Part shown: one piece after another, positions 14,037 to 45,590 of the stretch
Layout of the letters: every line of letters begins with the position of its first letter
Position numbering within the stretch: position 1 is the stretch's first letter
DNA from: Telopea speciosissima
Taxonomy: Eukaryota > Streptophyta > Magnoliopsida > Proteales > Proteaceae
Length of the DNA: 64,000 bases
NCBI RefSeq assembly: GCF_018873765.1
Contig: NC_057922.1
Coordinates: 13,777,563-13,841,562, forward strand
Reading direction: 5' to 3'
Translations under genes and position numbers: made by a program
Notes under the pieces: model-generated
Seen by the model: only the letters and a program-made list of their open reading frames with translations
Databases searched by the model: none
What the model was told of the DNA's origin: nothing

Positions 14037-14778
14037 AGACCTATTTTCCTTTTTTTGTTGTTCTTTTCTCCTTTGATGTATTTTTTTTTTTTTTGGTAAG
14101 ATTGCTTTGGTATCTATTTTAAATTGGGCAGAGAAAGACCTACATAGTAGAGAGAGAGAGAGGTATTGTTAGATTCCTATGTTACTTTCCTCGAATTATA
14201 GATGGTAGGCAGCTTAAGTCGGGCAAGGGTTCTACACGCCACTCGCATGTAATGGCATTTCTCATGCCAAGCCAAATCAACATGATTAGAGAGGAGAGAG
14301 TATCAAAAGAGAGAGTGACAGTTTCTCTTGAAAAGAAATCGTATTTTAAAAAGAGAATAAAAGACGTGGAGAAAGATAAAAGAGGCAATGCTTAGGTTTC
14401 TAAAAAGGTATTTTCATCAAGTGAAAAAAAGTACCCAAATATTTTGGGAGGAAGAATGCTACCCGATCACGCTGTTCTGCTCTTTGATATAATGGCACGT
14501 GAAATAATTACCGCACCCTTGGTCATTTCTAGAGTTTCAAAGGATGTGTGGTAGAAGCAAGATGATACTTTCCGATGCTCCTGTGTCTAGGCACAGATAC
14601 CCTTTTTTTTCTTTTTTTTACTTTTTTGGATCTTCTCAAGTTTGGCGTAAGCCCTGAAAGCAAAAAAACATCTTGGCTTTACATGGGATTCACTCATTTT
14701 TTAAAATGACCTAAATTTTTTATGGTAACAAGCTAACATCCAACGGACACTTGGTCTTCAACATTGTTTAAAAGGCTC

Positions 14779-15707: not shown

Positions 15708-18700
15708 TTATTGTTGTGGCCGACGTAGCCCTGGGATCTGTGAAACATTTGAAACCAAAGAACAGCAAGGTATAAATCACATTTAGATTACATTAGAAAA
15801 AAAAAAAAAACACTTGCTAACAACATGCAGAATGAAGTGTTTCCCGCAAAGTTCAACAATGGAAAGGTGAAGCATAAGAAGACAACAAAATACATCTCAA
15901 GTTGGGGCTATTGTGTAGGGTCTACTACAGAGTTACAAGTAGTCAGTAATGCCATTAGTGGGGGTATAAATTTGTCAGTCATGCCTTGTGAGGGTTTCAC
16001 AGAGTTTAAGTAGCTCTTCCACTTCCAGGACAAATTCTCCTGTTTGTGCCTCATAAAAAGAACTAGCAGGTTGGTGTATCATTACCCTGATGATATAACA
16101 TAATAAAAACTTTTCCTATCTCACATGATGGGGTGAAGGTGATATTCTTTTGGTTCATTAGTTGCTTTGCCCTTTTTCTAGGCTCCATATAGAGAAAATA
16201 TATTTATTACTTGTTCTTCACTTTTAAACATTCTCACTTGTCAGAGGCTACTCACCAGCAAAAGCATTTTCTCATTTCCTGGTTCTAATAACCAGAGGTG
16301 TCTTATATTCTTGAACATGTTCTCATCTTCTTTCTCTATTTTTGCTTTCTTTCTATTCATTAGAGGGAGAGAGAGAAAAAGAAAACCTCACGACCAGCAG
16401 TCACACCACAACCACAGTAAACAAACTCAACAATCTTCTCTATCCACTCCACCGATGGATTAAATTGCATATTAATAGGAATATAAAACTCCTATAACAT
16501 AGTAACTCTTAAACAAGGAAAATTGAAAACCAAATTCATGATATTATTTAGATAACCATTAAAAGTCATGAGGATTAGGTTACAAAGCAACTTGGGCCCG
16601 AAGTGTAGGGCTTGGTTTAAATTGATCATGTGTCAAATTTCAAAGCCAAATTCAATCAAATACCACTAGTGCATGGCAATTCAGTTGAATTTTCAGCTAT
16701 CCTTATATTTTCAACAACATTTCAAAAGTTTCATTTTGGTTAACAGATGTTCAATGCTTTATTACTACGTGGCTAACTCCATCTGGGATAAAACTTGATA
16801 TGTGAGTAGGGGGCCTTGAGACCCACTTATCCACAAAATTTAGCCACTAACCAACCTGTATATTTACATTCATTACCAACAATCTTGCCACATCAACAAC
16901 CCTGCATGGCTTGCACATACAAGATTTTGCTAGTTCATTTCATATAGATTGAAAAGGTACAACACTGATTTGGGGCTTGAAGAAAATTCATTACTTTAGC
17001 TTGTAAAGAAAAAGAGATGACCTGGAGGTGAATAAGAAGAAACTTCTGAAAATTATAATTGATTTAGATAACAAACTAATGTAGTGAAGAATTCAATATT
17101 GTGGGGAACCACTTCACATGAGGTAGAGCACTAACCTCAATGCCATGGGGACCAATTCGATTACGAGAGATAAAGTTAAGTACAAGAGAAGCAAATTCAT
17201 CAGGGGCATCTTCCTGCATTATTTAGGGGTTGAAATAAACCAACTAATTTAAAGAAACATTAATTAATGAGCAAGAAAATATACAACACACACACACACA
17301 GAGATAGAGAGGGAGAGAGACCTGTATAGCATGCCCAGTGTGTCGCACAACTACCATTTGAAACTTGCCTTGCATTTGACCTATTGTAAGGGTTCTGTTG
17401 AAGTACAATGCAAAGAATTCTTCAACATAGCTAAATCATACTTTGATAAGAACCTGGATACAAGTCCACTATTTCAAGTAGGTCATAAGCTTTGTCAAAT
17501 CAGAAAGGAAGAATTTAAATCCAGAATACTAAGTGGTAACCCTTTTTTTTTTTTGGGGGGGCGGGGGGGCATAGTACGAGGTCTTTGCGAGATCTCAGCC
17601 ATCTTGTCTCGGTTTCGTCAAGTTTCGAGATGAGATGGGTTACGATACTGAAATAGTACATTTTCTCGGCCGATATCTCAGAAATCATCTCGCATCGAAG
17701 TTTCGTCTCGGCGAAACTGTTACAAACCACATATAAAAGGTGCATTATTTCGGTCGAAAGCTCAACCAGTTTCTCTGCTCTCGGTGAGTTTCGACACTGC
17801 CTTCCCAAAAACTCTCCATTTGTTCAATTTTTTATCAAATACAAACCACTCTTGCTTGCGTCCATTAAATTTCTTGCCAAACAACAACATTTGGAGGAGA
17901 TTGCAACTTGAAGGTAATGCACATTTAATGGTTTATAATTTGATATCTTTTCATTCCTAATGCTTATTTAGGTTTTTTACTTGGAGTATGTGTTCTAGTA
18001 CTAAAGATTGTATGAGATAGGCCATATCACTGTATATATACAGTGTAGACTACCAACCATAGGTCCAAAGTCAAACTATCATTTTGAGTGAGTTTTTTTA
18101 AAATATAAGGGTTCCACTATGTTTATAAGGCCTAAAATAGGCTGGACAGCAACTTTCATGGCCTAATTAGGTCATATGGCCACTGAAACCAAGGGCCGGA
18201 AAAAAAAATACAACTCAGCCTAGATATCGGATCTTGGTCATCTCGTCTCAGTTTCAGGACTGACTGAAACCATATCTGAAACTGAGAGCTCGAACCTTGG
18301 GGGGGTGGGTAAGGATACACACATACTCAAATTTATGCAACTTAAAATCAATGTAAATTGGTTAAAATTTAAAATATTTTAACATTTTATGCCTAACATC
18401 TGCTAGAACTTTCTACACCCATAAACTAGTTGACTCCACTGATGGCTATTTCTCTAGAGTCAAAATAGGTTGAAGTAATAACAAGAAAAGTTGCTAGACT
18501 ACTAATACCTGCCAACCTTTAAGATTTGGGATACTTGCCTGGGATAAGACTTTATGCAAGGGTAACATTGGGCCCAAAGAAACAGTTTTGTATCACCAAA
18601 TTCTCCATCAGAAACCTAGGGTTTTATTCTTAGTTTAAAAACACGATTCATTTTTGTTTCAGTCTGGTGCTTTTGTGTATTCAATCTGTTTTGGCAGTTT

Positions 18701-19446
18701 TGGCCTGTTTCAATCGTTTCGGCCTGATATGGGGGCTTTTACTGAAATGCATATCAGATGCTGATTTGGAATCTTTCATGTTGATCTTATTTGTTAGCCC
18801 ATTTTAGCTCATGTTGTGGTGGGATTTAGTACCTTAGATTTGCATTATAAATGTGGTGCGGTAAAGTTATTCATTTTATTTATATTTACTAGGGTTCACC
18901 GATATCATTGAAACACTGAAATATTTCATTTTGAGACTCATGCCAAAGTGGCAACCGAAATAAACTTTGCACCTAAGGTTATAATGGCTAAAATCCTCAA
19001 GAGCAAAAGAAGGAAACCCCCTTAAGGCTCCGTCTGGATACAAGAAGGGGAATGAAGAGAAATCAAAATAATATAAAAAAGGAAAATAGAAATCTTGTAG
19101 TCATGATTGCAATTGCGTAGCTAGAAGTCTTTCAAAAAAATGGTAATTAAAGTTTATAAATAGATTCTTTATTTTCCAAAAATGGTAATTAGAGTTTATA
19201 AATTACCTTAGGTGTTTTTATAAACTCTCTTACCCTATTCAGACCTGATACTAACTAGGAATCAGAGTTGTCAAGGCGTCACCTTGTTGGTGACTTGGTG
19301 TCACCATGTTTTTTTCCCTCCGCCATCGCCTTGTCGCCTTGACAACTATGCTAGGAATTATAAAATTACCCAATAAAAAATTCTAAATTAATTAAATCCT
19401 GTCAGAGATTAAGACCCCATCAGCAAATTGATAAGTTCCCCCCAAC

Positions 19447-19525
<79 letters not shown>

Positions 19526-22500
19526 TATATATATATAACTTGTAATAGCAAGATCTGGGCCTGATGGGATAGATAACAAACTTTCAAATACCACAAAAAT
19601 CATGCAAGGTGAATTAAGTTATGACCTTAAAAACAACCCCCAAAACAAAGTGATGGAACTAAGTTTTCTGAAACTTTTTGAATTGAAGATTGCGAATTCC
19701 AAGTCTCAACCCAATGGATAGAGCTGATAATGTTAAGACTAGGTTACTAGTCCCAAAAACCCACAAAATAAAAAATTTGGAATAAACTCAGAATTAGAAA
19801 CTTAAGATTTCCAGCCAAGCCAGCCATGTGCTGGTGATCAAACTTGGATCGAATGTAGAGGTTGGTAAGAGGATCCTTGGCTCCAAATCTCATTTAATTG
19901 TGATGGTTGGGTGTTGAGATATAAGAGAAACACCAAATTAGAAGGTTATGGAAAACCTTCAAAATAGAACTGATCTTGGACTCCAATGGCAACCGAGTGT
20001 AGACCTTAATGGTAGGAGCTCTGTCTACAAGTTTGGGTCATTCTTGATGGCCAAAAGTGGAGATGGAGGAGGGAGAATGAAAATAGAAAGTTAATGGATA
20101 TGGAAGGTTTCAGCCTATGGAATGGGGTGAAATAGGACATCGAGTGGAGGGAATAGAAGGGGGATGTTGTGTTTCAAAACCCAGCAGGAATGGTGAAGGA
20201 TTGGGGAAGTTATGGATTTAGTAACTTGCAGCCAAAGGGATTGCAGAGGTGCAGCAACAGCTCCAATCGATGGAACAACCAGCAGCAGCAGTAGCACTTG
20301 AGTATCCTTCTCAATGGTTGGGGCAGTCACAATAGCACCGCAGCACTCAGAGATCGATGCAGGGACAGAGAAGATAGAGAGGATAGAAAATAGAAGGTTG
20401 GGGGATAGGTGGATTAGGCTCTCTCAGCCAGGCTCCCTTCAGCCCTTCAAGTTACAATCAAAACTTGAGAAAGGCATCATAACTTTGCTAAAGCAATCTT
20501 CATTCAACTGTAAATCGTGGGGGGCTTCTAAAAGCCATTACAAATATATAGAGGGCTATGCTTGCACCTCAAGTTAAAAGAAAATAGAAACTTAACATAA
20601 TAGACTTGCAACATGAAAATAGAAAATACTTTAAATAACTAGGACTGAAAGAAAATAGCAACAAAATAAAATCTTCACTCTCCAAAAGGTGCAGCCGAAA
20701 TCTTCATGTCGTCCCCACCAAAGATACCATTCGGCCAGACTCAAAAATTGGCAATTGAAATTGACATTTATACCCTTCACTTAAAGACTTGAAGTAGCTA
20801 ATAATTAAAGACTGATCTGCCCCACGATTCTTCTAGAAATATTCTCACCAAGCCAAATTAAGAGGCTGTGACACTGTTCACGTGAACAGTGTTTTGGCCT
20901 CCTCTTCTTCATGTTTTGATCTACATCATCTGAACCATCTCAGATCTCTCTTATAGGATCTGAAGCTTATGAATCAACAACTTTTGATTCATAATCTTCA
21001 GTCCCCTCCACCTGGAAGGAACTTTACTTGGTTTATTGAATATTGGCCTTGTTGAAGTGTATATGCAAGGTTATTATTGTCATTTTCATATTGTGGGGAC
21101 ATGCGGGTATTATGGGTCTATTTAAAAGGGTAAAATAGACTTTTCAGTTTTTTCCAAGTATAAAAAAAGATAGAAAGCTACGGCTACTCCAACACGGTTC
21201 CCTCATCTCCTCTTTTTCCTCTTTCACTTTGCTTCTTCTGGTTTTCTTCTTCATTTTGTACTGTTATCTGTTCTTAGAAATCAAATTGGTATTAGTTATT
21301 CACCCAAAAAAAAATTGGTATTAGAACAGGCAATTTTGATTGCCAATTAGGTTTCTCTCATTATCCTGTGGAATGTTGAAGGAAGATGTGAACCCAAGGT
21401 TCCAAGATTTCTTGAAGGATGACAGAAACAACTTAGAGGAGCCAGACAAGTCCAGAGACAGCGATTTGTTAACTTTTTCGCAACCTTATAAAATAGTATT
21501 GATGTGATCATGTCCTCCCAGCCATCCAGGGTAGTTCCGCCAATACTATCTGATGTAATATCAGAATTTATATAACCAGATTAGAAGAAGAAAAAAACAG
21601 AGAAGAAGAAGAAGAGGAGAAGGGAAGGAGAAGACACAAATCCGAGAGAAGAGTTGGACTTGTGGTAGAACAGAATGTTCTATCGCAAGTCACATAAAGT
21701 CTTTTATATCAATAATAAGTAAGGACAAAAGTGCCCTTACATCAGACGGACATACATAAAGCATAATAATAAGATGTTCAATGACCTATCTACCCTTATC
21801 TACTCCAACACTCCCCCTCAAGCTGGAGCATATATATCACCCATGCTCAACTTGTTACACAAAGACCGAAAACTAGGAGCAAACAAGGACTTGGTGAATA
21901 CATCAGCAATCTGATCAGACGAAGAGACAAAAGGTGTCTCAACAAGCTTCTTCAAAACGGCACTGCGAACAAAGTGACAATCCACCTCTATATGCTTAGT
22001 TCTTTCATGAAAAACAGGGTTACTGGCAATATAGATGGCTGCCTGGTTGTCACAAAACATCTTCATAGGAGTTGGAATTGAAAATCCCATCTCAAGTAGG
22101 AGGGACCTAACCCACATCAACTCTGCAATAGTATGAGCCATGGCTCTATATTCCGCTTCAGCACTGGATCTAGCAATCGTGGTCTGTTTCTTGCTTCGCC
22201 ACGTTACTAGATTTCCCTCGACGAACGTACAATACCCAGTAGTAGATCTACAGTCACTAGCTGAACCTGCCCAATCTGCATCAGAGTAGGCAACAAGCTC
22301 CATATGCTTATTGGGTCGATAAATCAGCCCCTTCCCAGGGGGCCCCTTCAAATACCGAAGAATCCGAATGGCTGCATCCCAATGAGACTTACAAGGAGAT
22401 TGCATAAACTGGCTGAGAACACCAACAGCATAAGAAATATCTAGTCTAGTGACAGCCAAATACAACAATTTCCCAATCAAGCTTCTGTAGGAATGAACAT

Positions 22501-25500
22501 CCTTCAGACCCTCACCATCATCAGAGCCAAACTTGTGATTCGGATCCATAGGAATATCTACTGGTTTGGTAGCCAGCATACCAGTTTCAGTCAAGAGATC
22601 TAACACATACTTCCTTTGAGACAGACTGATTCCCTTCTTACTTCGAATAAATTCAATCCCAAGGAAGTAGTGAAGCTGTCCCAAATCTTTAGTTTGAAAG
22701 TGCTATTGTAAGTAATTTTTCACCTCTGTAATTCCATTCTCATCATTCCCTGATACAATAATGTCATCAACATACACAACAAGTAACACCAATTTCTCCC
22801 CTTTGCGACGAACAAACATAGAGTGATCTGAGAAGCACTGAGTGAAGCCAAAACCAGTCACAACTGAACTAAACTTCTCAAACCAAGCACAGGGAGGCTG
22901 TTTCAGCCCATAAATGGCCTTGTGTAGCCTACATACACGACCACTATTCTCCCCCTGAGCAACATAGCCTGGAGGTTGCTCCATATAGACCTCTCCAAGA
23001 AGGTTACCATAAAGAAAAGCATTCTTGATATCCAACTGGTATAAGGGCCAATCAAAGTTCACGGCCAGAGAAATAATGAGGCGAACAGAGTTCAGTCTAG
23101 CCACAGGAGAGAAAGTCTCAAAATAATCAACACCATAAGTTTGGGTATACCCTTTAGCTACCAGGCGGGCTTTGAGCCGCTCAACAGACCCATCAGAGTG
23201 ATACTTAATAGTGTACACCCAACGACACTTGACTAGGTCTTTTCCAAGAGGTAAATCCACCAACTCCCATGTATGCCGAGTCAACAAAGCATCCATTTCC
23301 ACATCCATGGCCTTTTTTTAGGCAGGATTGATAAGAGCCTCAGTGTGAGTGTGAGGGACAGTATAAGAAGATAAAGAGGTAGCAAGACTATGATGGCAAG
23401 ACTGAAGATGAGATAAGGAGACGAAATTCTCAATAGGATAAGTAACTAAAGATTTTTTAGTACATGAACGTTTACCTTTCCGAGTGGCAATGGGTAAATC
23501 CTCAGGATCCAGATCAGCTGGTAAGTCAGGAACAACGGTTAAGACTGGATCTCCACCAGAAGTTGAGGAAGGTACAGGCAGCGATGCAGAAGGGCCAGTC
23601 TGATCTGTATGGAGCTGCCCAAAATGCCTCTTGCGCCGGTACACCTATAGTGAAGGAGTCATAGGTACAATGGCAGGAATGGGAGGAGGGTGAGACACAG
23701 CTAATGGATCACTAGACACGGTGGGCGGAGTAGAAAAATAAGAAGTACCTTCGAAGAAGGTGACATCCGCACTCACAAATTGCCTGCGAGTGAGAGGGTC
23801 ATAACACCTGTATCCCTTCTGGGTCCTAGAGTAACCCAGGAAGATACATTTGGTTGACCGAGGGTCCAATTTATCCCCATAAAGATGAAGATTATGAACA
23901 AAGCAAACACACCCAAAAATTCTCAGAGGCAAACTAAAACTCGAAACACCGGGAAACAAAATAGAAAACGGTGTTTTATCACCAAGAACAGAAGAAGGCA
24001 TCCGGTTAATCAAAAAACACGCAGTAAGAAATGCATCACACCAAAAATGTTTGGGCACCTGCATATGCAACATGAGGGCCCTGGCACCTTCAAGCAAGTG
24101 CCTATTTTTACGCTCCGCTACCCCATTTTGTTGGGGAGTATAGGAGCAACTGGTTTGATGAATGATCCCATGAGTAGTAAAAAAGGAAGATATCTCAGAT
24201 TAAACAAACTCCAGAGCATTATCAGACCGAAAAACCTTAATAGAAGCATTAAACTGATTTTTGATTTCATTGCAAAAAATAGGAAACACATTTAAAAATT
24301 CTGATCTATCCTTCAAAAGATACAACCAAGTACTTCTGGAATAATCATACACAAAAGTCACAAAATACCGAAAACCATGTCTATTACTTGCCCAACAAGG
24401 GCCCCACACATCTGAATGCACTAATAAAAATAAAGAAGTACTACAGGGCAAAGGGCGAGAGGGGAAAGTAGCACGATGATGCTTGCCCAACTCACAGCCC
24501 TCACACTCTAATTTATTTAAAGACTTTAACTGGGGAAACACAACTTTTAACCGAGACAAAGCTAAATGGCCTAGCCTACAATGCCATTGAAACGGAGACT
24601 TTCCACCAACAGTAGTAGCTGCAGCTGAAGCTGACGGGGCAGCACCAGTCAGATAATATAGTCCATCTTTCTCATATCCCCCACCAATCGTCTTCCTAGT
24701 GTGAAGATCCTGAAAAAACACAGGAAGAAGGAAAAAAAGTTACGGAACAATTCAAATTCTTGGTAAGTTGACTAACAGAAAGAAGACTTAAAGAAAATTG
24801 GGGAACATGTAAGATAGACGTCAGAGAAATCTGTGAATTAAGAGGAACAGTACCATGTCCGGTAACAGGAGTGGAGGAACCATTGGCCACAACAACAGGA
24901 GGGATATGAGAGCTAGAGGAAATAGAACTAAAAACAAAGGACTTACCAGTCATGTGAGCAGAAGCCCCCGAATCAATGATCCAGGGTGTGGAAGCAGTGG
25001 AAAAAAGAGTAGCAGGTATACCTGCATGAGCAAGAGTGGCAGTAGTAGTGGATGCCCCAGAAGTGGAAGTGGATGATTCCAGACTCTTGATGCGTCGCAT
25101 GAGTTGTTGCATCTCATCACGGATGTTGGTAGAAAAATCTCCCATAGTCGAACCAGCCTTAGTATCACTAGATGTGACAAAATCAGAACCATCTTCAAAA
25201 GTTGCATGATTGGCCAAGTTTTGAGCCCATTCGGGTTTCCCATGCTTGGACCAGCATGTGTCAACAGTGTGGTTTGTCTTTCCACAATAAGAACACAACC
25301 GGGCTGCTTTATCAATATGCTGCCCACCAGAATTACAACCACCAAAGCCACGCCCTCCCCCTGAACCACGGCCTCTAGTAGTAGTAAAAGCAGAATTTTC
25401 CTTGGGGTTAGTGTTAGGCTTGGAGCTAGGAGAGGTAATGCGCTGCAGCCTAGAAAAGTGTCATTCAAGGTTGGGACAGATTCACCAGCCAACAAATGTC

Positions 25501-28500
25501 CTTCAACAGCCTTGAGACTAGGATTCAAACCAGCCAGAAACTTACATACAAAAAATTCATTCCGTTGAGCCTTCAACTTCTCAATGTCAGTAGTAATAGG
25601 TTGGAAAACATTTAGTTCCTCAATCATGCCTTTAAAAGCACTGTAATAGTCTTGGAGAGACTTGTCTCCCTGCTGAAATTGAAACAACTTCTCGTAAAGA
25701 TCAAAAATACGTGTCATACTCTTCTCTTGAGAATAGGTCTCCTTGAGATCATCCCAAACTCCTTTGGCCGTGTTATGAAACATAACATTCGTTGCGATAT
25801 CTGGTTCCATGCTGTTCCATAACCAGATCAAAATAATAGCATTCTCTTTATTCCACTCCTTGGATTCAGTTGCAAGGGGAGGAGAAGTAATATAGCTAAG
25901 TTTGTCCTTAGCCATGATGTAAACTCGGACAGCTTGTGCCCACAATAAGTAGTTGGAATTCCCCTTCAATTTTATGGAGGTAATCTAAACATTGACATTG
26001 TCGTGGAGGGTCTTCAAATCACCCATAGTAGGCAGTCTCCAAAAAAAATAGATAAGAACAAGCCCCAAGGTAATCGAATCTGAAGAAGGACAAGTAGGGA
26101 GGAAGCAACCAGCAACCAACAACCAGCAGTAGAGACAAGAAAAAAAGGAGATAACTAATTTCAGTCAAGGCATAAGTAAGTGACAGCACCAATATCACAG
26201 CAAGTAGGAGCAGCCAAGGCCAGATATAAGGCTGAAATCGATCCCAGTGTGAGGATTTCTGGGAAGAAGAATGAAAACTTCAAATAAGCAGCACCATTAG
26301 GCAAACAGCATGACAATAACCTCCAAAAAGACTGCGCACCATGTAGATATAGGCTGGAAATCAAAAAAAACTTGAAAGACAAACTTCCCAAGGAAAGTCG
26401 ATATCTTTCAGGGTTTTCTTCTGGCATCGATCTCAGCAATCTTCAAGAGTATGTGAGGGAAACTTCCAATCAGTCATTAAGTAAGATAGATAACAATAAA
26501 ACTCACTCCATTAATCCTTCGAAGGAGTGTGATTACATCACAGAGATAGCAGCAATAGGTGGCTGCACACCACAAGCAAAACACGATAAAGTGAACTCAG
26601 AAGAGAATCATGAGAAGGGCTCCAATCTGGTTAAATATGCTCTGATACCATGATGTAATATCAGAATTTATATAACCAGATTAGAAGAAAAAAAAAACAG
26701 AGAAGAAGAAGAAGAGGAGAAGGGAAGGAGAAGACACAAATCCGAGAGAAGAAGTTGGACTTGCGGTAAAACAGAATGTTCTATCGATTTCCAAAGGCAA
26801 AACTATCCAATATGATAATTAGCTCTGTGCCGATCCTTTTCGATTTCCAAGGTGGTCCATCCCCAATCCGGTATCATGCACTTTTTTTTTAAATAGAAGT
26901 ATCATGAACTTAAACCATAAAGACAAGGGCCAAGTTTTAAATACATCTATAGAGTTGTCATTTAGATAATCCCTTACTAAATTATATCATACCAGGGGTA
27001 AATATTTATCCATTATGCTAGTAATAATGGAACAGTTTTGTTCGGGGGAACAAGGAGAAGCATATCTATACTATACCAAATCGATAAGGATCGGCACAGA
27101 GCTAATTATTGGATAGTTTTGCTATCGGCAAACAACCGCTAGCTCGGTTGGCTGGAGGCATTGCAAGTTGGTGCATGCCCCCCAGGAGGTCAAGGGTTTT
27201 TTTTTAGGTGAATAAAAAATTCATTACTAAAAGCAGCCCTCAAAAAGGAGGGAAGAAACAAGAGACAAGGACCAGCAAAAAAGGCTCAAACAGCGGAGCC
27301 CGCTGGCGTAAGGGTGATAGAAGAAAGGCCCCAGGATACAACAATGAATCCGTTCCTTGGGGTGTCAATACAAGTAGAAGGAGCAGCTAAACTAATTTTA
27401 GTTTTGATTTCAAAAGAGATGGAATCCCAAATCTGGTTGGTAGATCTCGATTTGGAGGTCCATTTCCTAAGATTTCTCTCCATCCAAATGTGGTTGATAG
27501 CCGCCGAGAAAGCCGATCTCCCAATCATATCACAGATAGTAGAGCCACCAAAAGTCATATCAACCCAAATCCACTCACGATCAAAAGGAAAAATCCTCCT
27601 GTTTGACGGCCAGCATTTGGAAAGGATGCCCTTCCAGATAGAGCGAATGAAGGGGCAGCCAAAGAAGAGGTGATTTGTATCTTCAGTCCCATTCCAACAA
27701 AGGCCACAGTTGGAGGAGACCATAATGTGCCGGTGTCTGAGGAAAGCTTGCGTTGGGAGGCAGTTGGATAAGACTCTCCAGACCGTGAAGCTGTGTCTTG
27801 GAATGTGGTGCTTGTACCAGACAAGTTTCCTCCAAGGGACAAGCGGAAGGCTAGATCTGACAAGGTCCCAAGCTGATTTAGTGCTGAACTTTCCCGAAGT
27901 GCTAGGCATCCAAGAGACACAGTCTTCCCTGTTGAAAGTTCTTCTGGAGATTGTAGGAAGGAGAGCCCAAATAGAAGTAAGAGTAGCGGAAATGGAGTCA
28001 GGGGGGTCCCATCCATCTTCATTTAGGATATCAGCCACCAAAGCATTTCTAGGAAGCCCCGAGTCATAAATCATTCTAGGGGTAACCTGGTGAAGCAGAA
28101 TGCCCCTAGGATGCCAGTGGTCCAGCCAGAGCAAGGTGGTATTCCCATTACCAATGTGAGAACATATAGATCCAAGAGTCAGAACTCTATTCTCAAGAAT
28201 CTTGCGCCAGGTCCAAGAAGCATCTGAATGTATTTGGACCGACCAAATAGAGTCTGAGCGGAGAAGACCTGAATATATCCAATCCACCCAAATACTTTTG
28301 GCCCTAGAAACAATCTTCCAAAGAAGCTTGATAATGCCAGCAGAATTCACATCTTTGATCCTTCTAATTCCCAAACCTCCTTCCTCTAAAGGATGACAAA
28401 TCAAGTTCCAGCTGATAGGCCGGAGGAATCTAATGGCATCAATGCCTTTCCAAAGGAAAGAAGCCATGAGGGTCTCCAAAGACTGAATGGTGGACTGAGG

Positions 28501-31500
28501 CAAGCCATAGATACCCGACTCTCCTGGAATGCATTTGTGCCAAAAAAAAGGCACCTTTCTCCCCCTCCCCCCCCCTACCCCCTTAGTTGTAGATTGTGGG
28601 CTTGTCTTAGCCTTTCCCTTAGTTTGTAGTTGGCCTATGGGCCCTTGAGTAGGATAGACCCAAAAAAAAAAATGTTCTATCGCAAGTCACATAAAGTCTT
28701 TTATATCAATAATAAGTAAGGACAAAACTGCCCTTACATCAGACGGACATACATAAAGCATAATAATAAGATGTTCAATGACCTATCTACCCTTATCTAC
28801 TCCAACACTATCTTTTGGATTTTTCTTCTTTTTTTTGGGAAAGGGAAGCATCTGATATCGAACCTGTACTCAAGGTTACATAGGATCTCTCTTTCAATCC
28901 CCTATGGAATGAATTCTCAGATGTTACTCAAATGGCAGTTCCACCAGTACTATCTTTTGGGGATTCGGTTCGGTTCCAAGTAGTGGCAGCAGGATCCAGA
29001 TCCGGACCAGGTCCCGCATCGGTTCTAGAATTGGATACTTTAACCAAACCTGGTCCGTTCGGTTCGGGATCTGGTTATAATTCAGTTCCTGTATTCGGTT
29101 CTTATTTGGTTACTTTACCCAGTTCTTATCTGGATACATTCGAGTCTCATGAATCATTATTTTCTACAAAATAGTGATACTACAACAACAACAGCAACAG
29201 TACATCATACAAGGACTACGCACAAATGCACAATGGCTGGTATGGCTCCTGTAGACTAGGGACCACCCTACACGTAAATATTCATGATGGAATATCATTT
29301 CCAAAGCACAGTCTTGGTCGAACAACCCTGGTTTTGCCAAATCATCAGTCACCTTGGTCTTAATAACCATGGAAATCAACATCTGAGTACTTCAGATATT
29401 TTTGTTTATTGTCTTCCATTTTAAAATTTATGCGACTTCTATAATTTTGATGTTAATATAATCAATAGGCATTTATTTTACTGCAGTTTCCCCATTTTAT
29501 CTGGACCTAGAGAGCTGCAAAAAATATTATAAATACCAGCTGCTTTGAGCAACAAGATGATCAGATAATCATGATATAAATCAAACAAGAAATCCAAGAT
29601 TTGTTTGAGAACTCTGAGCTCTTAAAAGTCCAAAAGTCAGAAAAATGTGCCAAGACAACCATCATGAGATTAAAATATTATACTATACAACAGTTTTAGT
29701 ATACTAATACATGTGCTTTTCCATGTCAAAAAATATTATTGAAGAAAAAGTTACACTATATTGGAATAAATGCTGCAGAGTACCTGTCCAGTCTATCAGT
29801 TCCAGCCAACAATAAAAGCTTTGGCACAGGACAAGACAAGAACTTTTCAGAAAGACCCTCATACCTGGAATACAAAGTACAGATTTTCCAGGTTTGTAAC
29901 TAATGTGTTGGATGGCATTAACTCTTTTACAGAAACATTCAAAATGTGGACAGAAATTACTGAAAAACACAGCAAATGAAAACAAACTCATCAATCTTAT
30001 TTTATGCACACATATCAAAAAGTCATGAACTCATGATATGTAGTCAATTTAACCAGAAAATCCAGGCAATAAAGCATATATACCAAGGCATCCAAGCTAC
30101 ACTAAAGAAGAAAAGGGACAACTATCGAATTTTGTACAGAAGAAAAGGGCCAGCTATTACATTTTGAATCGACTGTAAATTTTGTTTCCTCACCTTGTTC
30201 ATGAATTCAGGCCTTGAAATTGTTAAGGCAAGCACCAAAAAAACTCGATGAAACAAACAAAAGCAAAGATGACAGAGAGATTTAACGTGGTTCACACACC
30301 AATATGATGTATTACATCCACAGGTGAAGCTGAAGATAATTCACTATGTAATGGAAGAAAAGTACAAGGGAGATCTCTCAAGAACACCCAAAAAAACGCA
30401 GCCAAGAACTTCCCACAGAAACCCTCAGTCAAAAATCCCCAAATCCCACTTCTTTCACTTGCTTACACAACAAGACAATAAAACATATAAATACTCCTCC
30501 AATTCAGTTTCCAAATTCTGAACTAAAATTCTAAACAGTATTTGAAAGAAAGATTTAAACATACCAGCCTCTCCAATAGCTTTCTGTTTCTTCTAGCCGT
30601 GTTCGGTATGTATAACTGCGTAACACTTAAAAATCAGGATATACTTGTTCAATGTAGAATGTGAGGCTCTTTAAGCATAGAAAAATACCAACAAAAAAGT
30701 ACATCTAATTCATCCAAATCTAGATTGTGAAGGCATCTAGGCGACCCAAGGTATTGGAGGGCCACCTAGGTGCTTAGGCGACAAGGCACCCGCTTAGGCG
30801 TCACTTTGGCGCCTTAGTAATCTTTTTATGTATCCATTATATCTAGTATAGCAATAATATAATTATGCTTATAGCATTACAGCAACAACAACATAGATTG
30901 AATCTATGCACTGATTTACCATTACATCTAGTAACATCATTACAACATTACAGCAACAACATTATGTAAGAAACAATATCATTCAGAGTGGGGAAAAAAC
31001 TAAGTAAACAAGAGAAGGAGAACAGGGGAAGTGAACTAGTGAAGTTCGATTTCTTTCTTTTTCTTTTTTTTTTTTGGCTAAATGATCTCATGCTTCTCAC
31101 CTATACACAAACTTGTACACAACCAATAAAATATTAGAAACAGCATTATCTAGAGGGAAAAAACGTAAGTTTAAAAAAAAAAATTCTACCCAGGGTCCCA
31201 AGATGCCCGCCTTGTTAAGTTAGAATAAGGCGGGCGACTGCCTAGCCCTTGGAAACCCACCCAGACACCACCTTGACAACTATGATCCAAATTTAATGTG
31301 ATACAGTGGAGGGACATAACTGACTGTTATGGAACATTAAAGTTCTTACCATTTCTTTGAATCGTCATACTTCAATGTTGATGGAACCGAAAGACGAGCA
31401 GACTCAATGTTCCTTAGAGAGCCACCTTTCACACTCCATTCAATCTGAGTAGAAATTCAATTTTTCAAATACATTATACAGATTATACCAGTTCCAATAG

Positions 31501-34500
31501 ATGAACAATACAATATGATACCCAATACAAAAATATTTATTCATTTGAAAAGGGAGTGCAAAATAAAACTCTCCTCAAAAGACAAAGTAGCAAACCTTAA
31601 CCAATTGACCTAATTCATGTGATACCATATATTAAGACAAGATTTGCTATTACCATTGGAATAGGAGTGGCAAATGATCAGACAAATCTGGGTCCAGGTT
31701 GAACACGCTACATCCATCGCTATCTGTCCAACCCGAAAGAGTACAGATGTCCATGTCTGGCATGGTTTTAATCCTTTTTTCTTTTTCAGATAGCCATATG
31801 GTTCTAATCCAAGTTGTCGATTTCTGATCTCGTAGGGGGAAAATTTTTTACCAACCGTCAACTTTGGAATCAAAAGGTTTTAGTATAAGTAGAACAAAAA
31901 CAGAATATATGGTGTGTAACTTCAGTAACAATAGGACTGATAATGAGGAGGTAAAAATTGATGATAGGGAAATCCCACAAGGTGAACATTTTAGGTACCA
32001 GGCTCAATCATAAATAAAGAAGGAGAAATAGAGGATGATGTTGCACAAAGAACTAAACAAGGATGGATGAAGAGGAGAGGTGTGTCTAGAATGTTGTGTG
32101 ATCGACGAATTCCTTTAAAACTAAAGTGAAAGTTTTATAGGACGGTCATACGACCGGCAATGATGTATAAAGCTGATTCTTGGGCAGTAAAGAAACAACA
32201 TATAGATAAACTTAGTGTAGATAAGATGAGGATGTTAAGATGGATGAGTGGTAAAATTAGAAAGGATAAAATAAGGAATGAACAAATTAGAGCTAAATTA
32301 GGAGTAGCTCCGATACATGATAAGTGGCGAGAAAGTCGTTTGAGGTGGCATGGACATGTGCAACGGAGACCTTTAGTTTCTTCAGTACGGATGAGTGATC
32401 TGATTCAGATTGAAGTAGCTAAAAAAGCCAGGGGTAGTACTAAAATGACTCTAATAGAGCTGATTGGAGAAAAAGGATCCATGCAGCCAACCCCCTTTAT
32501 TTAGGATAAGGCTAAGTTGAGTTGAGTTCAGTTGTCTGCTAGATTTTGTCCAATCCAGTTAAAACCAGGTCCACACACACAAAATATATGTATATATGGT
32601 GTCCAAAACCGAGTTTAGACAAGGATAACTTAGTCTGAATTTAAAAAGAGGAGAATCTCACAGAAACAGTTTAAAAAACTGGAAAATGCAATCATGAAAT
32701 TGTGACTATGGCCTGAGCCAGTACATGTATATGTAGACATGAGACTTGATTCTGGACACAATCACACACTGAATTGGAATTACTAAAATCATACACTCTG
32801 CAAAATTTGAAGGAAAAAAACTTGCCATCAGCTATAATGTATACTAAGGGTGTCAATCGGGTGGTTCGATCGGTTTTTTCGGATTCGGTGTGAGTTTAAG
32901 GGAAATCGAAACCAAACCAATAAGGACTTTTCGGTTTCGGTTCGGGTTGGACTCGGGTTCTGTTCGGTTCGGTTTGAAACCTGGGTATAGGCTGGTTTGG
33001 GTAGGAATTAGGTAGAGTTTTTTGGGGGTTGGTTTTAGTGTTCGGTTTGGTCCTATCGGGCAGAACAATCAGTGGCCCGTCGGTTTAGCCCGAACCAAAC
33101 CGAAACCGAATTATGTTCTAACCCGGAAAAAGAAGCCGAACCGTTAAGACATCAGTTCGGTTTGGATCGGGTTTTACCGGTTCGGTTTAGGTTTTGACAC
33201 CCTTAGTGTATACCAATCAATGATAAGTAGAATGAAGACGGAGTATATGATGTGTAACTTTACTTACACTAGAACAAATAATGAGGTGGTGAAAATTGAT
33301 GAGAGGGAGATTCTGCAAAGTGATTATTTTAGGTATCTAGGATCAATCATAAATAAAGAAAATGATATAGAAGATGATGTTTCACAAAGAATTAAAATAG
33401 GATGGATGAAGTGGAGAGGAGCATCCGGAGTATTGTGTAATCGGTGTATTCCTTTAAAACATATAGGAAAGTTTTATAGGACAGTCATATGACCAGTTAC
33501 GATGTATGGTGCAGAATGTTAGGTAGTTACGAAGCATCATATAGATAAACTCAGTGTAGCTGAGATGAGGATGTTGAGATGGATGTGTGGCAAAACTATG
33601 AAGGATAAAGGAGCGATCAAATTAGAGGTAATTTGGGAGTAGCTTTCGTACTTGATAGGCTACGAGTGGCCAAGTTCAACGGAGGCCTTTAGATGCTCCA
33701 GTACGGAGAAGTGATTTGATTCAGACAGAAAAAGCTAAAAGAGCCAGGGGCAGACCTATAATGATTAGGGAAGCATTGGTAAGGAAAGGCATGCACAGCT
33801 TAGGCCTTGTATCAAGTATAACCTAAAATAGAGCTGATTGAAGGGTAAGGGTCCATGTAGCCGACCCCATTTAGTTGGGATAAGGAGTTGTTGTTTTATA
33901 GCACAAACCATCAAGACATTGGGTGCTGAGTTAGGTTACTGAAGTGAATTAGGAAAATGGTGGATGGTTGTTCTGAAAAGAGAAATAACAAGATAAGCAG
34001 GTTGACCAGAGGATAGAATGAGGACTAAAAGTTGCTGGTGGATAGAAAATGCCTTGATAACATGATATATATAATCTCAAACTCCATACAAGTGAAACAT
34101 TAAAGGAAATAAGTAGATAGGAAGAATACAAAATTTTAAAGGTATGGCAGATACCGCTTTTTCAATGGCGTGAAAATACTGCATTCTGCTTGATAGGATC
34201 TTTTGCATGTGAATCAATGAAGCCATTGCTGTTCCCTGAATTTCACTTACTGATCAGTATAGCTGCCATTTACCATATAGTTTCAGGAACTCTTGAATGA
34301 CTTCGCTGAAATAACAAACCTCTACAACATCTACAACAATCAGCCCAGCCAAGCTTGAAATTGCCTTCCTTGCAGCAACATGCACTGCAACTGAACCTCC
34401 CATGCTGAAAACAGGCAGTAATGAACATGAATCCAAGTCAACATGAATGATACAATGCGAAGGAGCATCAAAAGGTCCTAGATATTCCTCTAGTAACATG

Positions 34501-37500
34501 TTTTATCAAGTGAGAGCTTGATTAAAGGATTAAAATCACCATCAACAATCCCTTTTACAAAAATTCATTTGAGATTAGTAAAAATATATCTATGTTGCAC
34601 ACTAGATTTTATTTTTTTATTTTTTTATTTTGGGGGGGGGGGGGGGTGTGTGCATGTGCAAGCACAATTGCACCTTAAGGCTTAAATCACAGGCCATGGC
34701 ATAGATCATACTCAGAACAAACATCATGTTTTTAATACTCCATAAAGAAATACTACTGCAATGAAATATTTTAACTACATTAATTTACTTCTGTATAGTT
34801 AGGAACACAGCAACCCCAAAATGAGGTTAGGAAAAAGCAATGAAGACCCAGAGAGAAATATTTCCACCATCATAAAAACAATCAGTTAATTATGTCAATA
34901 GAGATTAAAGACCAAAAAGCAACTGAGTGACCTTCAAAAAATTCATTATACCAACATAGATTTAAAAACCAAAGAATCATGCTCCCAAACTTTCTTGGCC
35001 TCAGGAAGTCATTTCGGTACCTAAACAAACCTAAGAAACCTTTCAAACCATTTCTTAAGTAATCTCATGAAGTTCAGGAGAGAACGTAAATTTAAGAAGT
35101 TCTGTTTGTCCTCATCTAGTAGTGTCTTTTCATGACAAAAAAATTATATGGCAAGTGTATAGGGCTGAGGAGTTGAGGTGTCCCCCCTCCCTCATATAGT
35201 GGGTCCAATTCCAAACTACTTTGTATAGCATCCTGCGAATATTTTATACAGGTTTTTTTGTAATATTAATTAAAATGCCTCATCTTTCCTCAGAAAAAGA
35301 AAAAGAAAAAGAAAACTACATATGATGGCCTGAAATAACACTAGGATTGAAAGGGTGAAAACCTGTGGCCAACAAGCACAACTGCAGGAGGAGTATCTCC
35401 ATATGAAGTCTTCAAAACAGCCAAAACATCATTGCATAGAGTCTGCAAACAATCATGTGCCATTTTATTTTTATGCGAAGTGATGATTTATGGGAAGCAA
35501 CCCAAACTAGTCAATTTCAAGACACGACGAAAAAAATGAGAATAAGCATTCTTGGTAGAACTCATTCTCAAGTAATATCTACCTCAATAGATAGGTCCAA
35601 ATCATTTTCTGTGCATGACTTCCCATGTCCTCTCAAGTCCATAGCAACTACCCGAGCCTTCTCCTTAATCTTACTAGCTGCCAAGGCAAATGAAAGCCTG
35701 ACAAAGAAATAATAATTTCAACAAATAGACCATGGAAAAATCTTGGCAAAATTAGTGAATTAGTAGGCAACACATAAAAGCTTGAGAAAACATATAAACA
35801 ATAATTACTACGGCAGAAAGTGTTATAAATAATTTGGATATAAAACAAGGGTACCACGGACTATATAAAATTCATATGTGAAGCTACTACTGGAGTATTA
35901 ACTCGGCCACAGTCTTTAGCTAATAAAGATTCCAAATTTAAAAAGAAAAAGAATAAAAACATGATAATTGAATCAGCTCTGCAGGGAGATTTGATGATCA
36001 GATAGCCTCTTGACCAAGAGCATCTTCAGCAGACACATTGAGCTGAAAAGGTTTATCATGCAACCATCAGGGGGAAAAAAATCTAAATAGAAAAAATAAA
36101 CCCAAGACACATTGATCTGTTTTTCAAAACCAATTCAAGAAATATCTGTTTAGAAAACCCAAATCATGCTTTGAAAGGTGGGCAGGGGTCGCAACCCAAA
36201 AGAAGGGGGAAACCCCCAAAAATATACAATGGGCATACAATAAAATGGTCTGCTATCAATCAAAATTATGGACCAACATGGCAACATCTAATACCATACT
36301 CAGCCCATGTGCAATACTACAATGTTTACATCAATTAGCACCTCTTAGCTGCAAATGGAATTTAATGTGCAGGTGGGATGTCAACTGCCATATGAAGCTT
36401 ATCAGCTGAACATAGTTTCCAATTCTGATTCTGCCCAAAGATACCCTGAGGTTCTACCTTGTGGGTGGATTCTGTAGTTTGTTGTTTCTAAACCTAGAAT
36501 CCTATTACAGATAAGTTGCCTTTGCATTTACAGTTTAATCATGATTGACAAGCTAATTAATTAGGGTTTTTTAAGTTTCTGATTTTAATCTTTTGAGCTA
36601 ATATCTTCAATTCACAATTCTGTGGTGTATCCTTTGTCAAATTTACAATTTACTCATAATACTTTATCTGCTTTCAGCATCCGAGATTAATTCTCAAGTT
36701 TTTCTTCCCTTACAGCTCTGACTCTTGAGGTTAGATTCAGATACAACTCTGAAACATACATACAACAGAATTTAAAATCAGTTGAGGCTTTTTCCCTTCT
36801 ATTTTGTTATTGATGATTACCCTGCATAAAGTGTGGAATTTCAGCAGCGGTTAAAAACTATATAATTTTGTTGTACATGAATTTCGAAAAGGAAACACAG
36901 TTAGAATTGATATAGCCACAACCCCCCCCCCCCACCCAAAAAAAAAAAAACCTATATACCAACTATACCTCAAAACAGTGGGAAACAGGAAAATTACATC
37001 AATCATCGAGCAAAAAAACACCAGCTTGAAGAAAAATAGTTTCTATCTCCCCCCCCCCCCCCCCAAGGAAAAACAAAAAAAGAATTCTTTTGAAGTCAAA
37101 GCCAACACAATAGATACCGGCCAATATCAGCGCAAATTCTGGGGAAAACTCAAGCTTACCTATTGATCAGATCTCTGTATCCAGATTGATTTGAACGTGT
37201 ATTAATTGAATTCTTGCAGTTTCATTGCTCTCCAAAAGCCCTCTCTAATACTTTGAAATTCAAATCAATTTAAGAGTTTTGGATCTTTTTTGCTTTGTTA
37301 GTGTTTTATTATGGTGGAGAAATGGTGATTTGCCTGTTTTGCACTCTGTGATCTTAGAACCACATCACAGGCTTCCCCAATGTCTCATTTGAGGTTTCTA
37401 TATGCATCACACTTTTTGTTCTTGAATTGCAATTTTTCTGCTAGCAACCCAAGAAAGAATGCACTTTCAGGCTTGCAGCATAATACTCCAGTACTGTGAT

Positions 37501-39141
37501 GATATTGTATTCATTACTTCCATTAGGTGTGTTTGCATGGAATAACAAACAGAAAACCCCCTACAAACTGATAATTAACAGATAGATTCCTCCTTCATTA
37601 ATTAAGCCAGTCCAAAATTTTCTTCTTTTGATATTGATAAGTGACAATTGACAAGCATTTTCAAGCAGCCAACATGTTTGAGTGTCATTATCAAGCATGC
37701 ACTCATCCACTCAAGAGTAAAAATAATATATGCTGGTGTTTGTAACTGGACGTAGAAGCGTATACCCTGAATAACCACCTCCATGCAGACAAAAAACAAC
37801 TGGTCCTTCAGATCCTGCTACATATACATGAAATACCTAAACAACAAAAAAGACATTAGATGATTAGAGATATGTTATACACGTTACATGTATTTATATT
37901 TAAATAATTAATGTAGAGCAACTACTCACATCATTTGAACCTGGAATGCAAATATCCTCCTCTCGATCGAAATATCCAGACCATTCTAAAGGGGAGTATT
38001 TTTGTAATGATGTCCTACATGCATATTACCAAATTCGTGAGATAAATAACCCCAGTTAACTGGGGAGAGAGAGAGAGAGAGAGTATAAACATAGAATATA
38101 TTGACCAATTGCATAATTTTCTCAAAGTAACATCATAACGCTACCTTGTTCTTTTCAAATACATAATAAACAAGTATAATAAGGACTTCAATTCCCTATT
38201 CTTACCAACCAGTTATCAACTAGTATTGCTGCCATGACATGACAAATCCAATCCTTAGAAGAACATTATTCACTTAGTTGGCTATTTGTAGCCTAAGAAA
38301 ATATATTGGTTGCTCACACGTATATACACAAAATTATGGTCAAGGGACACAAAAAACAACTGACAGTTGACTGCTACTTGATAATTCAGCAGCTTTGCAC
38401 AGGTTAAGGAGTTAGTTATTGAACCCATTTGTTAAATAATTTGGCTACCTATTAGCCTGAAATTTTACCAAAGTTGCAATACAAGGACAATGAGATCCTT
38501 GTCTATTTTTACTTCTTTTATTTTTTTTTATAAGCAACATAAGGTACCCTTTATTAAAATAAAAGAGAAACAGCCATACATCAAGGTGAACAAAATTTGA
38601 TAAAAATGTAGAATGGACAGCATTGTTAGGAAAAGTTACATGGAGTGCATATCATCATTAAAAAGCAAAACATTAAGAAATGGAAATCTAAAATCAGTTT
38701 AGCCCATTCAGACCGAAAATTAACTTTCTACACGCTACATAGTTATGTCCTTGAATAAACCCGACTAAGTACATCATAACATTATATGGTTTCTCTTATT
38801 CCAAATACCCCAAGTGATCGCTTCACAAACCATCTTCCAAAACAAACAACCATTTCTTCTCAAAACGGATCATCTGTGTCCCATGATGATGCACAGTCAA
38901 ATCCAAATAGACATTTAAAAAGTAATCCACAAGTTTGGGATCAATATCACAGGCAAGAGAACAAAAATTGGACAGATAATTTTGATTTTTTTTTAAAAAA
39001 AAAAAAAAAGGTCAGAATCAGAATGGAACGAAGAACTTACTGCGTTGCTGGACGATTGGGAATGTTGGAGAAAGCTGAGAGCTTTTGAGGCTCTTCCTCT
39101 GAGATATCCTCCGGAAGAGAAGTGAGACTCGAAGTGTCCAT
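15708..39141 (-). CDS. PPME1: Protein phosphatase methylesterase 1 (13 exons over 23.4 kb)
   Basis: Exons: 39141-39041, 38014-37930, 37836-37766, 35697-35583, 35442-35363, 34404-34320, 34235-34155, 31444-31350, 30615-30565, 29864-29784, 17394-17322, 17213-17136, 15737-15708. All join in frame with GT-AG sites and give 341 residues, close to known plant PPME1 length. The alpha/beta-hydrolase signals are HGGGYSG (80-86, oxyanion hole), GHSMGG with nucleophile S151, D176 in VVDVVEGTAM, and H303 in GHAIQED. The Ser-Asp spacing of 25 matches human PPME1 (S156, D181). The enzyme removes the methyl ester from the C-terminal leucine of the PP2A catalytic subunit and so controls holoenzyme assembly. 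Introns hold a Copia element, LINEs and MITEs; intron 10 is about 12.4 kb (17395-29783). No exon is broken. Confidence 0.95.
15864..16189 (+). repeat. Dispersed repeat family C, copy in PPME1 intron 12
   Basis: It shares its ends (AAGGTGAAGCATAAG and CTAGGCTCCATA) and internal blocks with 3867-4018. This copy is about twice as long because of an extra middle segment. It lies antisense to PPME1. No class could be assigned. Confidence 0.55.
17575..18300. repeat. Repeat-like segment with TCTCGGTTTCG motifs in PPME1 intron 10
   Basis: The segment begins with GAGATCTCAGCCATCTTG and many variants of GTTTCGTCAAGTTTCGAGA and ends with CATCTCGTCTCAGTTTCAG and GAGCTCGAACC. The related motifs at both ends suggest one non-autonomous mobile element of about 700 bp. 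No reading frame or clear target duplication was found. Confidence 0.4.
19267..19346. repeat. MITE family B, short copy (GTTGTCAAGGCG ends)
   Basis: The 12-bp ends GTTGTCAAGGCG (19267-19278) and CGCCTTGACAAC (19335-19346) are perfect inverted repeats around a short centre. A longer member with related ends lies at 30725-31280. Confidence 0.7.
19450..19537. repeat. (AT)n microsatellite
   Basis: About 88 bases of almost pure AT dinucleotide repeat with a single AAAT interruption near 19520, inside PPME1 intron 10. Its length is likely to vary between individuals. Confidence 0.95.
21551..21810 (-). repeat. 3' LTR of the Copia element
   Basis: On the plus strand it reads TGATGTAATATCAG to CTACTCCAACA, so in element orientation it begins TGTTGG and ends CATCA, the usual TG...CA ends. 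It is intact and about 98% identical to the split copy at 26651-28807. Confidence 0.92.
21811..21824 (-). promoter_or_regulatory. Polypurine tract of the Copia element
   Basis: The plus-strand sequence CTCCCCCTCAAGC is the complement of a purine tract next to the 3' LTR. This is the place where plus-strand DNA synthesis is primed in LTR elements. The same motif flanks the LTR at 60548. Confidence 0.75.
21818..23308 (-). pseudogene. Copia reverse transcriptase and RNase H (broken)
   Basis: Positions 23308-22703 encode the Copia reverse transcriptase with the substrate-binding segment [12 protein letters not shown] and the catalytic YVDD. A stop follows, then 22684-21818 continue with [12 protein letters not shown], the connection region and the RNase H domain ([36 protein letters not shown]). 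The stop codon between the two frames means no full protein is made without readthrough. Confidence 0.93.
23318..24721 (-). pseudogene. Copia GAG-pre-integrase and integrase region (broken)
   Basis: The pre-integrase zinc motif ([21 protein letters not shown]) is followed by the integrase core ([26 protein letters not shown]). A stop near 24198 precedes [19 protein letters not shown] and the C-terminal integrase part. Another stop near 23643 separates the linker to the reverse transcriptase. Confidence 0.9.
24696..25969 (-). pseudogene. Copia gag and protease region (frameshifted)
   Basis: The gag part starts near 25969 with [16 protein letters not shown] and the Copia gag pattern ([20 protein letters not shown]). 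A frameshift near 25430 separates it from the zinc knuckle [15 protein letters not shown] (25298) and the aspartic protease motif [13 protein letters not shown]. Confidence 0.88.
26639..26650 (-). other. Primer-binding site of the Copia element
   Basis: On the minus strand TGGTATCAGAGC follows directly after the 5' LTR end. It is the standard complement of the 3' end of initiator tRNA-Met used by plant Copia elements. Confidence 0.9.
26798..27121. repeat. Foldback element nested in the Copia LTR insertion
   Basis: The left arm CAAAACTATCCAAT...AATTAGCTCTGTGCCGATCC is mirrored on the right by GGATCGGCACAGAGCTAATT...GGATAGTTTTG. The arms match over about 45 bp apart from a short indel. The inside is AT-rich and non-coding. 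The exact ends and target duplication are not resolved. Confidence 0.65.
27130..28670 (+). mobile_element. Probable tRNA-derived SINE split by a LINE
   Basis: A tRNA-like A box, TAGCTCGGTTGGC (27140-27152), is followed about 35 bases later by GGTCAAGGG, the start of a B box. The sequence is then interrupted by a LINE fragment and resumes near 28551 with CACCTTTCTCC and a C-rich stretch. It ends in a poly-A run just before the 12-bp target duplication at 28671. A plus-strand retroposon with pol III promoter boxes and a poly-A end is the simplest reading. No full family consensus was available to confirm it. Confidence 0.5.
27196..28554 (-). mobile_element. L1-like LINE 3' fragment with zinc-binding RT domain
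   Basis: On the minus strand an open frame of 422 codons encodes the end of a plant LINE reverse transcriptase: [19 protein letters not shown] and [12 protein letters not shown], then the zinc-binding domain around [18 protein letters not shown] and [18 protein letters not shown]. The 3' end has a short poly-A (poly-T on plus at 27196-27204). The 5' part of the element is missing, as expected for truncated target-primed insertion. The frame is still open over its whole length, so it is fairly young. Confidence 0.88.
30725..31280. repeat. MITE family B, longer copy
   Basis: The left end TTGTGAAGGCATCTAGGCG and the right end ACCTTGACAAC resemble the perfect ends of the short copy at 19267-19346. 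Repeated GGCGAC and CTTAGGCG motifs lie near the left end, and GGCGGGCGACTGCCTAG near the right. The centre is AT-rich and non-coding. It is in PPME1 intron 8. Confidence 0.6.
31863..32530 (+). mobile_element. RTE-type LINE 3' fragment, copy 1
   Basis: The plus strand encodes the C-terminal part of an RTE-clade reverse transcriptase, with [27 protein letters not shown] and [12 protein letters not shown]. An open piece runs from 32160 to 32504 (114 codons) and more of the domain lies upstream in other frames. It ends with ATTTAGGATAAGG and a GTTGAGTT tail. It is antisense to PPME1 in intron 7 and is not functional. Confidence 0.85.
32845..33205. mobile_element. hAT-like MITE in PPME1 intron 7
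   Basis: The ends TAAGGGTGTCAA and TTGACACCCTTA are perfect inverted repeats. The 8-bp flanks are ATGTATAC (32837-32844) and GTGTATAC (33206-33213), one mismatch, as expected for a hAT target duplication. The inside is full of TTCGGTTCGG-type motifs typical of this non-autonomous family. Confidence 0.8.
33214..33898 (+). mobile_element. RTE-type LINE 3' fragment, copy 2
   Basis: It encodes a homologous stretch to copy 1 ([18 protein letters not shown], then RRCIPLKH-like and RMLRWM segments) with stops and frameshifts after 33492. It ends with the classic RTE tail CCCATTTAGTTGGGATAAGG followed by TTGTTGTT. It abuts the hAT-like MITE on its left side. Confidence 0.85.
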
Positions 39142-45429: not shown

Positions 45430-45590
45430 GTGAGCGGAAGCAGTTTTCTGTCCGATAGTGTGGAAAAGTACGCTTGTACTCCCATTTGTCTCTCGTTCTT
45501 AAAATAAGGGGGTAGAACTGTCTTTCCATATGGGGAGGACAAAGAGAGACTCATGGAAGTGCTGGCGCAGGCCACACTCCCTGGCTGAGT
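45430..45590 (-). repeat. MITE family A, copy 3
   Basis: On the minus strand it reads GGGAGTGTGGCCTGCGCCAG, CATGAGTCTCTC, CCTCCCCATATGG, then CACACTATCGGACAGAAAAC. The order and spacing match the copy at 693-842, including the TCGGACA stretch beyond the right end. It is about 350 bp upstream of the AAA-ATPase ATG. Confidence 0.65.

Follow-up and report, generated by a model that had tools for sequence, protein, structure and literature searches.

Judging by its exons and the protein that they encode, the locus at 15708..39141 on the minus strand is an ordinary, intact-looking plant PPME1 gene (PP2A methylesterase), and its product is predicted to demethylate the PP2A catalytic subunit. Here and below, positions refer to the window, that is, the whole stretch of 64,000 nucleotides of Telopea speciosissima DNA that was analysed. 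We put at about 87% the probability that the gene functions in the ordinary way: the 23.4 kb would be transcribed, the introns, including intron 10 of 12.4 kb, would be spliced out, and a working enzyme of 341 residues would be produced. Intron 10 carries a copia-type LTR element, and the upstream LTR of this element is itself interrupted by an insert.

Exon structure and identity of the encoded protein

The gene consists of 13 minus-strand exons that form one open frame of 1026 coding bases (341 residues) from the ATG at 39141 to the TAA ending at 15708. All 12 introns are of the GT-AG type, i.e., all 24 splice dinucleotides are canonical, and their lengths from intron 1 to intron 12 are 1026, 93, 2068, 140, 958, 84, 2710, 734, 700, 12389, 108 and 1398 bases. 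Exons 1–12, when joined, give 996 bases with no internal stop; exons 11–13 comprise 181 coding bases, remain in frame and end in the stop codon. The assembly reproduced the model proposed in an earlier sequence-only reading, including its coordinates, its coding sequence of 1026 bp in 13 in-frame exons, its splice sites and an intron 10 at 17395–29783, whose length was given there as about 12.4 kb and was measured as 12,389 bases.

39041..39141, minus strand: exon 1 with the start codon, residues 1–33 (placed by frame and donor site only; in-frame stops upstream; no homology support in the PDB chains)
37930..38014, minus strand: exon 2 (tblastn homology and frame)
37766..37836, minus strand: exon 3 (tblastn homology and frame)
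35583..35697, minus strand: exon 4 (tblastn homology and frame)
35363..35442, minus strand: exon 5, with the first two bases of the Ser151 codon (tblastn homology and frame)
34320..34404, minus strand: exon 6, with the last base of the Ser151 codon (GHSMGG) and Asp176 (VVDVVEG) (frame and alignment)
34155..34235, minus strand: exon 7 (tblastn homology and frame)
31350..31444, minus strand: exon 8 (tblastn homology and frame)
30565..30615, minus strand: exon 9 (tblastn homology and frame)
29784..29864, minus strand: exon 10 (tblastn homology and frame)
17395..29783, minus strand: intron 10, 12,389 bases, GTACTC...AACAG (exon assembly)
17322..17394, minus strand: exon 11, which codes for His303 (tblastn homology and frame)
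17136..17213, minus strand: exon 12 (tblastn homology and frame)
15708..15737, minus strand: exon 13 with the stop codon, last 9 residues; the weakest exon (frame and splice sites; no homology support in the PDB chains)

A phmmer search against PDB sequences matched the predicted protein to PME-1 chains with E = 1.4e-97 (3c5w_P), 7.6e-95 and 5.5e-93, and the next match had E = 3.9e-09. We assume that the matched PME-1 chains are the human ones. The BLASTP alignment with the 3c5w core showed 51.5% identity over 295 columns (query residues 37–327) and crosses the intron-10 junction. In addition, Pfam assigned the protein to Abhydrolase_6 (E = 1.3e-27, exceeding the curated cut-off), in agreement with an alpha/beta hydrolase fold. 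A tblastn search of the window with the 3c5w core found eight collinear minus-strand pieces of 31.2–46.6 bits at exons 2–12, and all remaining pieces scored at most 21.9 bits. The best scores in 20 mononucleotide shuffles of the window, a control that preserves base composition only, were 20.0–23.5 bits. Chance assembly of the exons was rejected on the grounds that the collinear scores exceed those of the shuffles and that phmmer matched PME-1; the PPME1 identity given in the sequence-only reading stands on the same phmmer and tblastn results.

The homology support covers exons 2–12, and exon 1 together with the last 14 residues, including exon 13, rests on frame and splice sites. When the window was searched with the gene's own protein using tblastn, exon 13 was matched only at E = 0.42, and nothing outside the gene fell below E = 1.6. 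A second copy of PPME1 exons in the window was rejected, since E = 1.6 was the best value of any outside piece. Note that exon 12, if left unspliced at 17136, can be read for 19 further codons before a stop, which leaves the precise C-terminus as the least secure point of the model.

The sequence-only reading had also named a catalytic Ser-Asp-His triad. In the phmmer alignment, Ser151, Asp176 and His303 correspond to the Ser, Asp and His of PDB 3c5v; the Asp and His positions agree with both printed PME-1 chains, and at the serine 3c5w has Ala. We take these Ser, Asp and His positions to be the catalytic residues of PME-1. The predicted protein thus resembles PME-1 (PDB 3c5v, 3c5w, 7soy) as an alpha/beta hydrolase with this triad at the 3c5v positions and the 3c5w identity given above. 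It differs from 3c5v in lacking a short loop near query residues 232–239, and its N- and C-terminal ends are left uncovered by the PME-1 match.

Other features were recorded around the gene. Just downstream of PPME1 and on the same strand, an uninterrupted protein of 717 residues with PPR, E, E+ and DYW deaminase domains is encoded (10979–13132, minus strand); this is presumably an organelle RNA editing factor. Upstream of PPME1, an At3g28540-like AAA-ATPase with AAA_assoc, AAA and lid domains lies in two frame pieces (42647–45074, minus strand). A dispersed short repeat was found at 694–841, 13967–14037 and 45436–45580, in both orientations. Rfam at gathering thresholds and ARAGORN with the bacterial code gave no matches in the window. 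In a search for IMG/VR relatives, four stretches fitted a pattern, and tblastn confirmed none of them.

Nested insertion in intron 10 and repeats in other introns

The repeats that were delimited in introns 10 and 7 are as follows.

21551..28807, minus strand, the gene's own orientation: Ty1/copia-type LTR element with a nested insert (LTRs, domains and target duplication)
21551..21810, minus strand: downstream (3′) LTR, 260 bases, uninterrupted (repeat comparison)
21818..25969, minus strand: copia coding region in broken pieces, namely gag, pre-integrase and integrase, SH3-like and reverse transcriptase (Pfam), with an RNase H-like end
26651..28807, minus strand: upstream (5′) LTR, interrupted by the insert (repeat comparison)
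26787..28670, no strand assigned: insert in the 5′ LTR, 1,884 bases with a 12-base duplication, or 1,886 bases to 28672 with a 10-base duplication (repeat comparison)
27286..28554, minus strand: LINE-type reading-frame fragment with a zf-RVT domain, within the insert (Pfam zf-RVT, E = 4.2e-22)
31445..34154, minus strand: intron 7, 2,710 bases, with two diverged copies of one repeat (repeat comparison)

The copia-type element is flanked by a 5-base target duplication, CTATC, at 21546–21550 and 28808–28812, and both LTR copies have TG...CA ends on the minus strand. The stretch TGGTATCAGAGC adjoins the upstream LTR at 26650 on the minus strand, and we take it to resemble the initiator-tRNA primer site typical of copia elements. 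Reverse transcriptase was recognised by Pfam with high significance (RVT_2 in 22703–23308, E = 4.1e-57), and the integrase match (rve in 24200–24721) had E = 4.6e-05 and 24.0 bits, under the curated cut-off of 32.6. The RNase H label on the end of the coding region is our own assumption. In the 5′-to-3′ direction of the minus strand, the domains follow the copia order: gag, integrase, reverse transcriptase. The Copia element that the sequence-only reading had placed in this intron is borne out by the paired LTRs, the domains and the target duplication. An open polyprotein frame was not found: six separate pieces of 150 residues or more make up the coding region, of which five share a frame and one lies in a second frame. 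This copy is therefore probably not autonomous.

Together, the copia element and its insert account for 7,257 of the 12,389 bases of intron 10 (59%). The sequence-only reading had called the intron mostly repeats, which was shown for this portion. Removal of the insert and one copy of its duplication leaves a copia element of 5,361 bases, and removal of the element with one target copy leaves an intron of 5,127 bases. Intron 10 also contains a run of AT dinucleotides of about 90 bases (19447–19542). Elsewhere in the window, at 60295–60570, parts of the copia LTR and of its inner border recur as short matches (79% over 77 bases; 28 exact bases), which suggests a related element nearby.

The LINE-bearing insert evidently arrived after the copia element. 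It may not be one simple LINE copy, because the A-run next to its right-hand duplication is on the plus strand, whereas the coding strand is the minus strand, and because it includes an inner inverted pair. The members of this pair, 26797–26846 and 27078–27122, are about 50 bases long and 88% alike; the segment 26797–27122 is possibly a small DNA element. A second LINE fragment occurs in the window with a zf-RVT frame at 54997–55584 (minus strand), and its DNA at 54883–55436 is 68.6% alike to 27319–27872.

In intron 7, the two repeat copies (31885–32448 and 33223–33764) are 76% alike over 566 columns, and their plus-strand frames are presumably LINE-like, of the RTE type. Four uncertain intron frames, two in intron 7 and two in intron 10, were submitted to Pfam: three had no match, and the fourth had a weak viral match (E = 0.038) under the cut-off. 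Stop-to-stop frames were scanned in introns 1, 3, 7 and 12 and in the parts of intron 10 on either side of the element, six regions in all; the longest frame, of 124 residues, lies in intron 7. The statement of the sequence-only reading that the gene is stretched over 23 kb by transposons is accurate as regards the nested insertion in intron 10 and the two repeat copies in intron 7, but the load is mainly in one intron.

Age of the insertion and predicted expression across intron 10

The two LTRs of the copia element, with the halves aligned separately, differ at 4 of 260 sites and by one gap. The corrected divergence is 0.0156, with a Poisson 95% range of about 0.004–0.040 (computed on 259 sites). 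At substitution rates of 1.3e-8, 6.5e-9 and 2.5e-9 per site per year, the age of the element would be 0.6, 1.2 and 3.1 million years, respectively, with an overall range of 0.16–7.9 million years; these dates are orders of magnitude only, as the rates are assumed. With so few LTR differences, the element looks fairly young.

A neutral simulation was performed with 4000 trials at 0.0078 substitutions per site and an assumed indel rate of 0.12 per substitution. Exons 11–13 and their 12 splice bases remained intact in 78% of the trials. The share was 52% at 0.02 (approximately the upper LTR bound per lineage), 19% at 0.05 and 4% at 0.1. About 1.4 substitutions are expected in the 181 coding bases of exons 11–13 since the insertion. 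Thus, with a young element and 78% intactness under neutrality, the intact exons say little about splicing since the insertion and are weak evidence for continued splicing or tolerance. The sequence-only reading had seen here a clear example of a conserved gene that bears a heavy load of intronic elements; the exons are indeed intact, but the wording is too strong.

The same low LTR divergence bears on the idea that PPME1 is already dead or split, i.e., that transcription does not cross intron 10 any longer and the downstream exons are a relic that has had too little time to decay. The divergence permits few changes, in line with the roughly 1.4 expected substitutions, but 13 exons share one frame, all 24 splice dinucleotides are canonical and no other PPME1 copy is apparent within the window. 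We consider such a relic very unlikely.

Motifs in intron 10 raise another possibility. On the sense strand, AATAAA occurs at 29477 and 29410, i.e., 306 and 373 bases into the intron, and six more times further on. Against the ordinary reading, the two early motifs could stop transcripts prematurely. If exon 10 is read into intron 10, 8 residues are added before a stop, which gives 290 residues in all; this product would keep Ser151 and Asp176 and would lack His303, which is coded in exon 11, directly past the intron. Intron 10 is therefore the place where early ends would disable the enzyme. Accordingly, the intron could be imagined as a switch in which part of the transcripts would be terminated at poly(A) sites of the intron or of the element, and full-length mRNA would depend on an IBM2/EDM2-type pathway that suppresses early ends. 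Control of this kind over element-bearing introns has been reported for Arabidopsis and rice (PMC10241880, PMC7145194), but AATAAA is short and would be expected often by chance in AT-rich introns, its presence is no evidence of use, and nothing specific to this locus indicates regulation. Such a switch seems improbable to us. A more specific version, in which the copia insertion itself would have made intron 10 choose between the full enzyme and a truncated PME-1 of 290 residues that lacks the catalytic histidine but may retain binding to PP2A, with PP2A methylation being tuned through silencing of the element, is a long shot indeed.

We therefore favour an ordinary PPME1 with an enlarged intron. 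An intron 10 of about 5.1 kb would have received the copia-type LTR element in sense orientation, and the LINE-bearing sequence would then have inserted into its 5′ LTR. The whole 23.4 kb would still be transcribed, and accurate removal of all introns, intron 10 included, would yield the active 341-residue enzyme. The excess intron length would be neutral and most likely without a function of its own. We infer that transcription crosses intron 10, that splicing is accurate, that the enzyme is active and that the insertion is neutral.

Relation to known element-filled introns

Long introns filled with elements are a well-known kind, and their frequency differs greatly between plants; the Telopea PPME1 gene adds no more than a further example. 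Among published cases, grapevine comes closest: 2,697 introns of 3–100 kb in 2,563 genes were reported there, which are over 80% repetitive and in which Copia elements and LINEs abound, Copia outnumbering Gypsy by about 6.5 to 1 (PMC3058033). The same source gives 20 introns of 3–100 kb in Arabidopsis and 54 in poplar; such introns are far from universal in plants, a point against the ordinary reading. The Telopea intron is similar in size and in its Copia and LINE content; it differs in being predicted from the DNA, whereas the grapevine introns are EST-supported, and in lying late in the gene. Among the large introns of the 39 grapevine genes that were compared, more than 40% are introns 1 and 2 (PMC3058033). 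Heterochromatic introns, which were described in over 10% of rice genes, show a 5′-end, promoter-proximal bias (PMC7145194), whereas the Telopea case is intron 10 of 12. This late position, set against the 5′ bias of the rice and grapevine counterparts, also counts against the ordinary reading.

Chloranthus and the magnoliids offer a second comparison. Genes longer than 20 kb numbered 876 in Chloranthus, 2 in rice and 0 in Arabidopsis among 2,184 selected orthologs (PMC8626473). The Telopea gene shares the length above 20 kb, and LTR elements were the main contributor in Chloranthus; that work was a genome-wide survey with RNA-supported introns, whereas here a single locus is described from its DNA. 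Like the heterochromatic introns on which IBM2 (Arabidopsis, rice) and EDM2 (Arabidopsis) act by countering early ends, intron 10 carries an LTR element within a gene (PMC7145194, PMC10241880). In grapevine, clusters of a single EST made up 46.0% in large-intron genes versus 32.8% (PMC3058033), and by this likeness a lower expression of PPME1 is possible.

A literature search found no paper on the introns of a plant PP2A methylesterase gene. We take AT4G10050 to be the Arabidopsis orthologue of this gene. AT4G10050 appears as a map marker in PMC4321030. The name PPME1 is used for AT1G69940, a different gene, in PMC8108470 and PMC4926471 (a pectinesterase in one of them), so name-based literature searches mix two genes.

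Annotation errors of this sort are on record for grapevine: each of 188 EST clusters corresponded to several gene annotations, and the authors put this down to one gene having been split at a large intron (PMC3058033). By analogy, the danger of a split gene model at intron 10, which the sequence-only reading had pointed out, is plausible. The locus is a clean worked example for annotation, in that 12.4 kb separate the final three exons, which encode the catalytic histidine among other residues, from the rest, and a model cut at intron 10 would resemble a hydrolase without its histidine. Premature transcript ends in this intron would likewise disable the enzyme. The case illustrates, too, why the intactness of exons next to an insertion says little about tolerance by the gene when that insertion is young.
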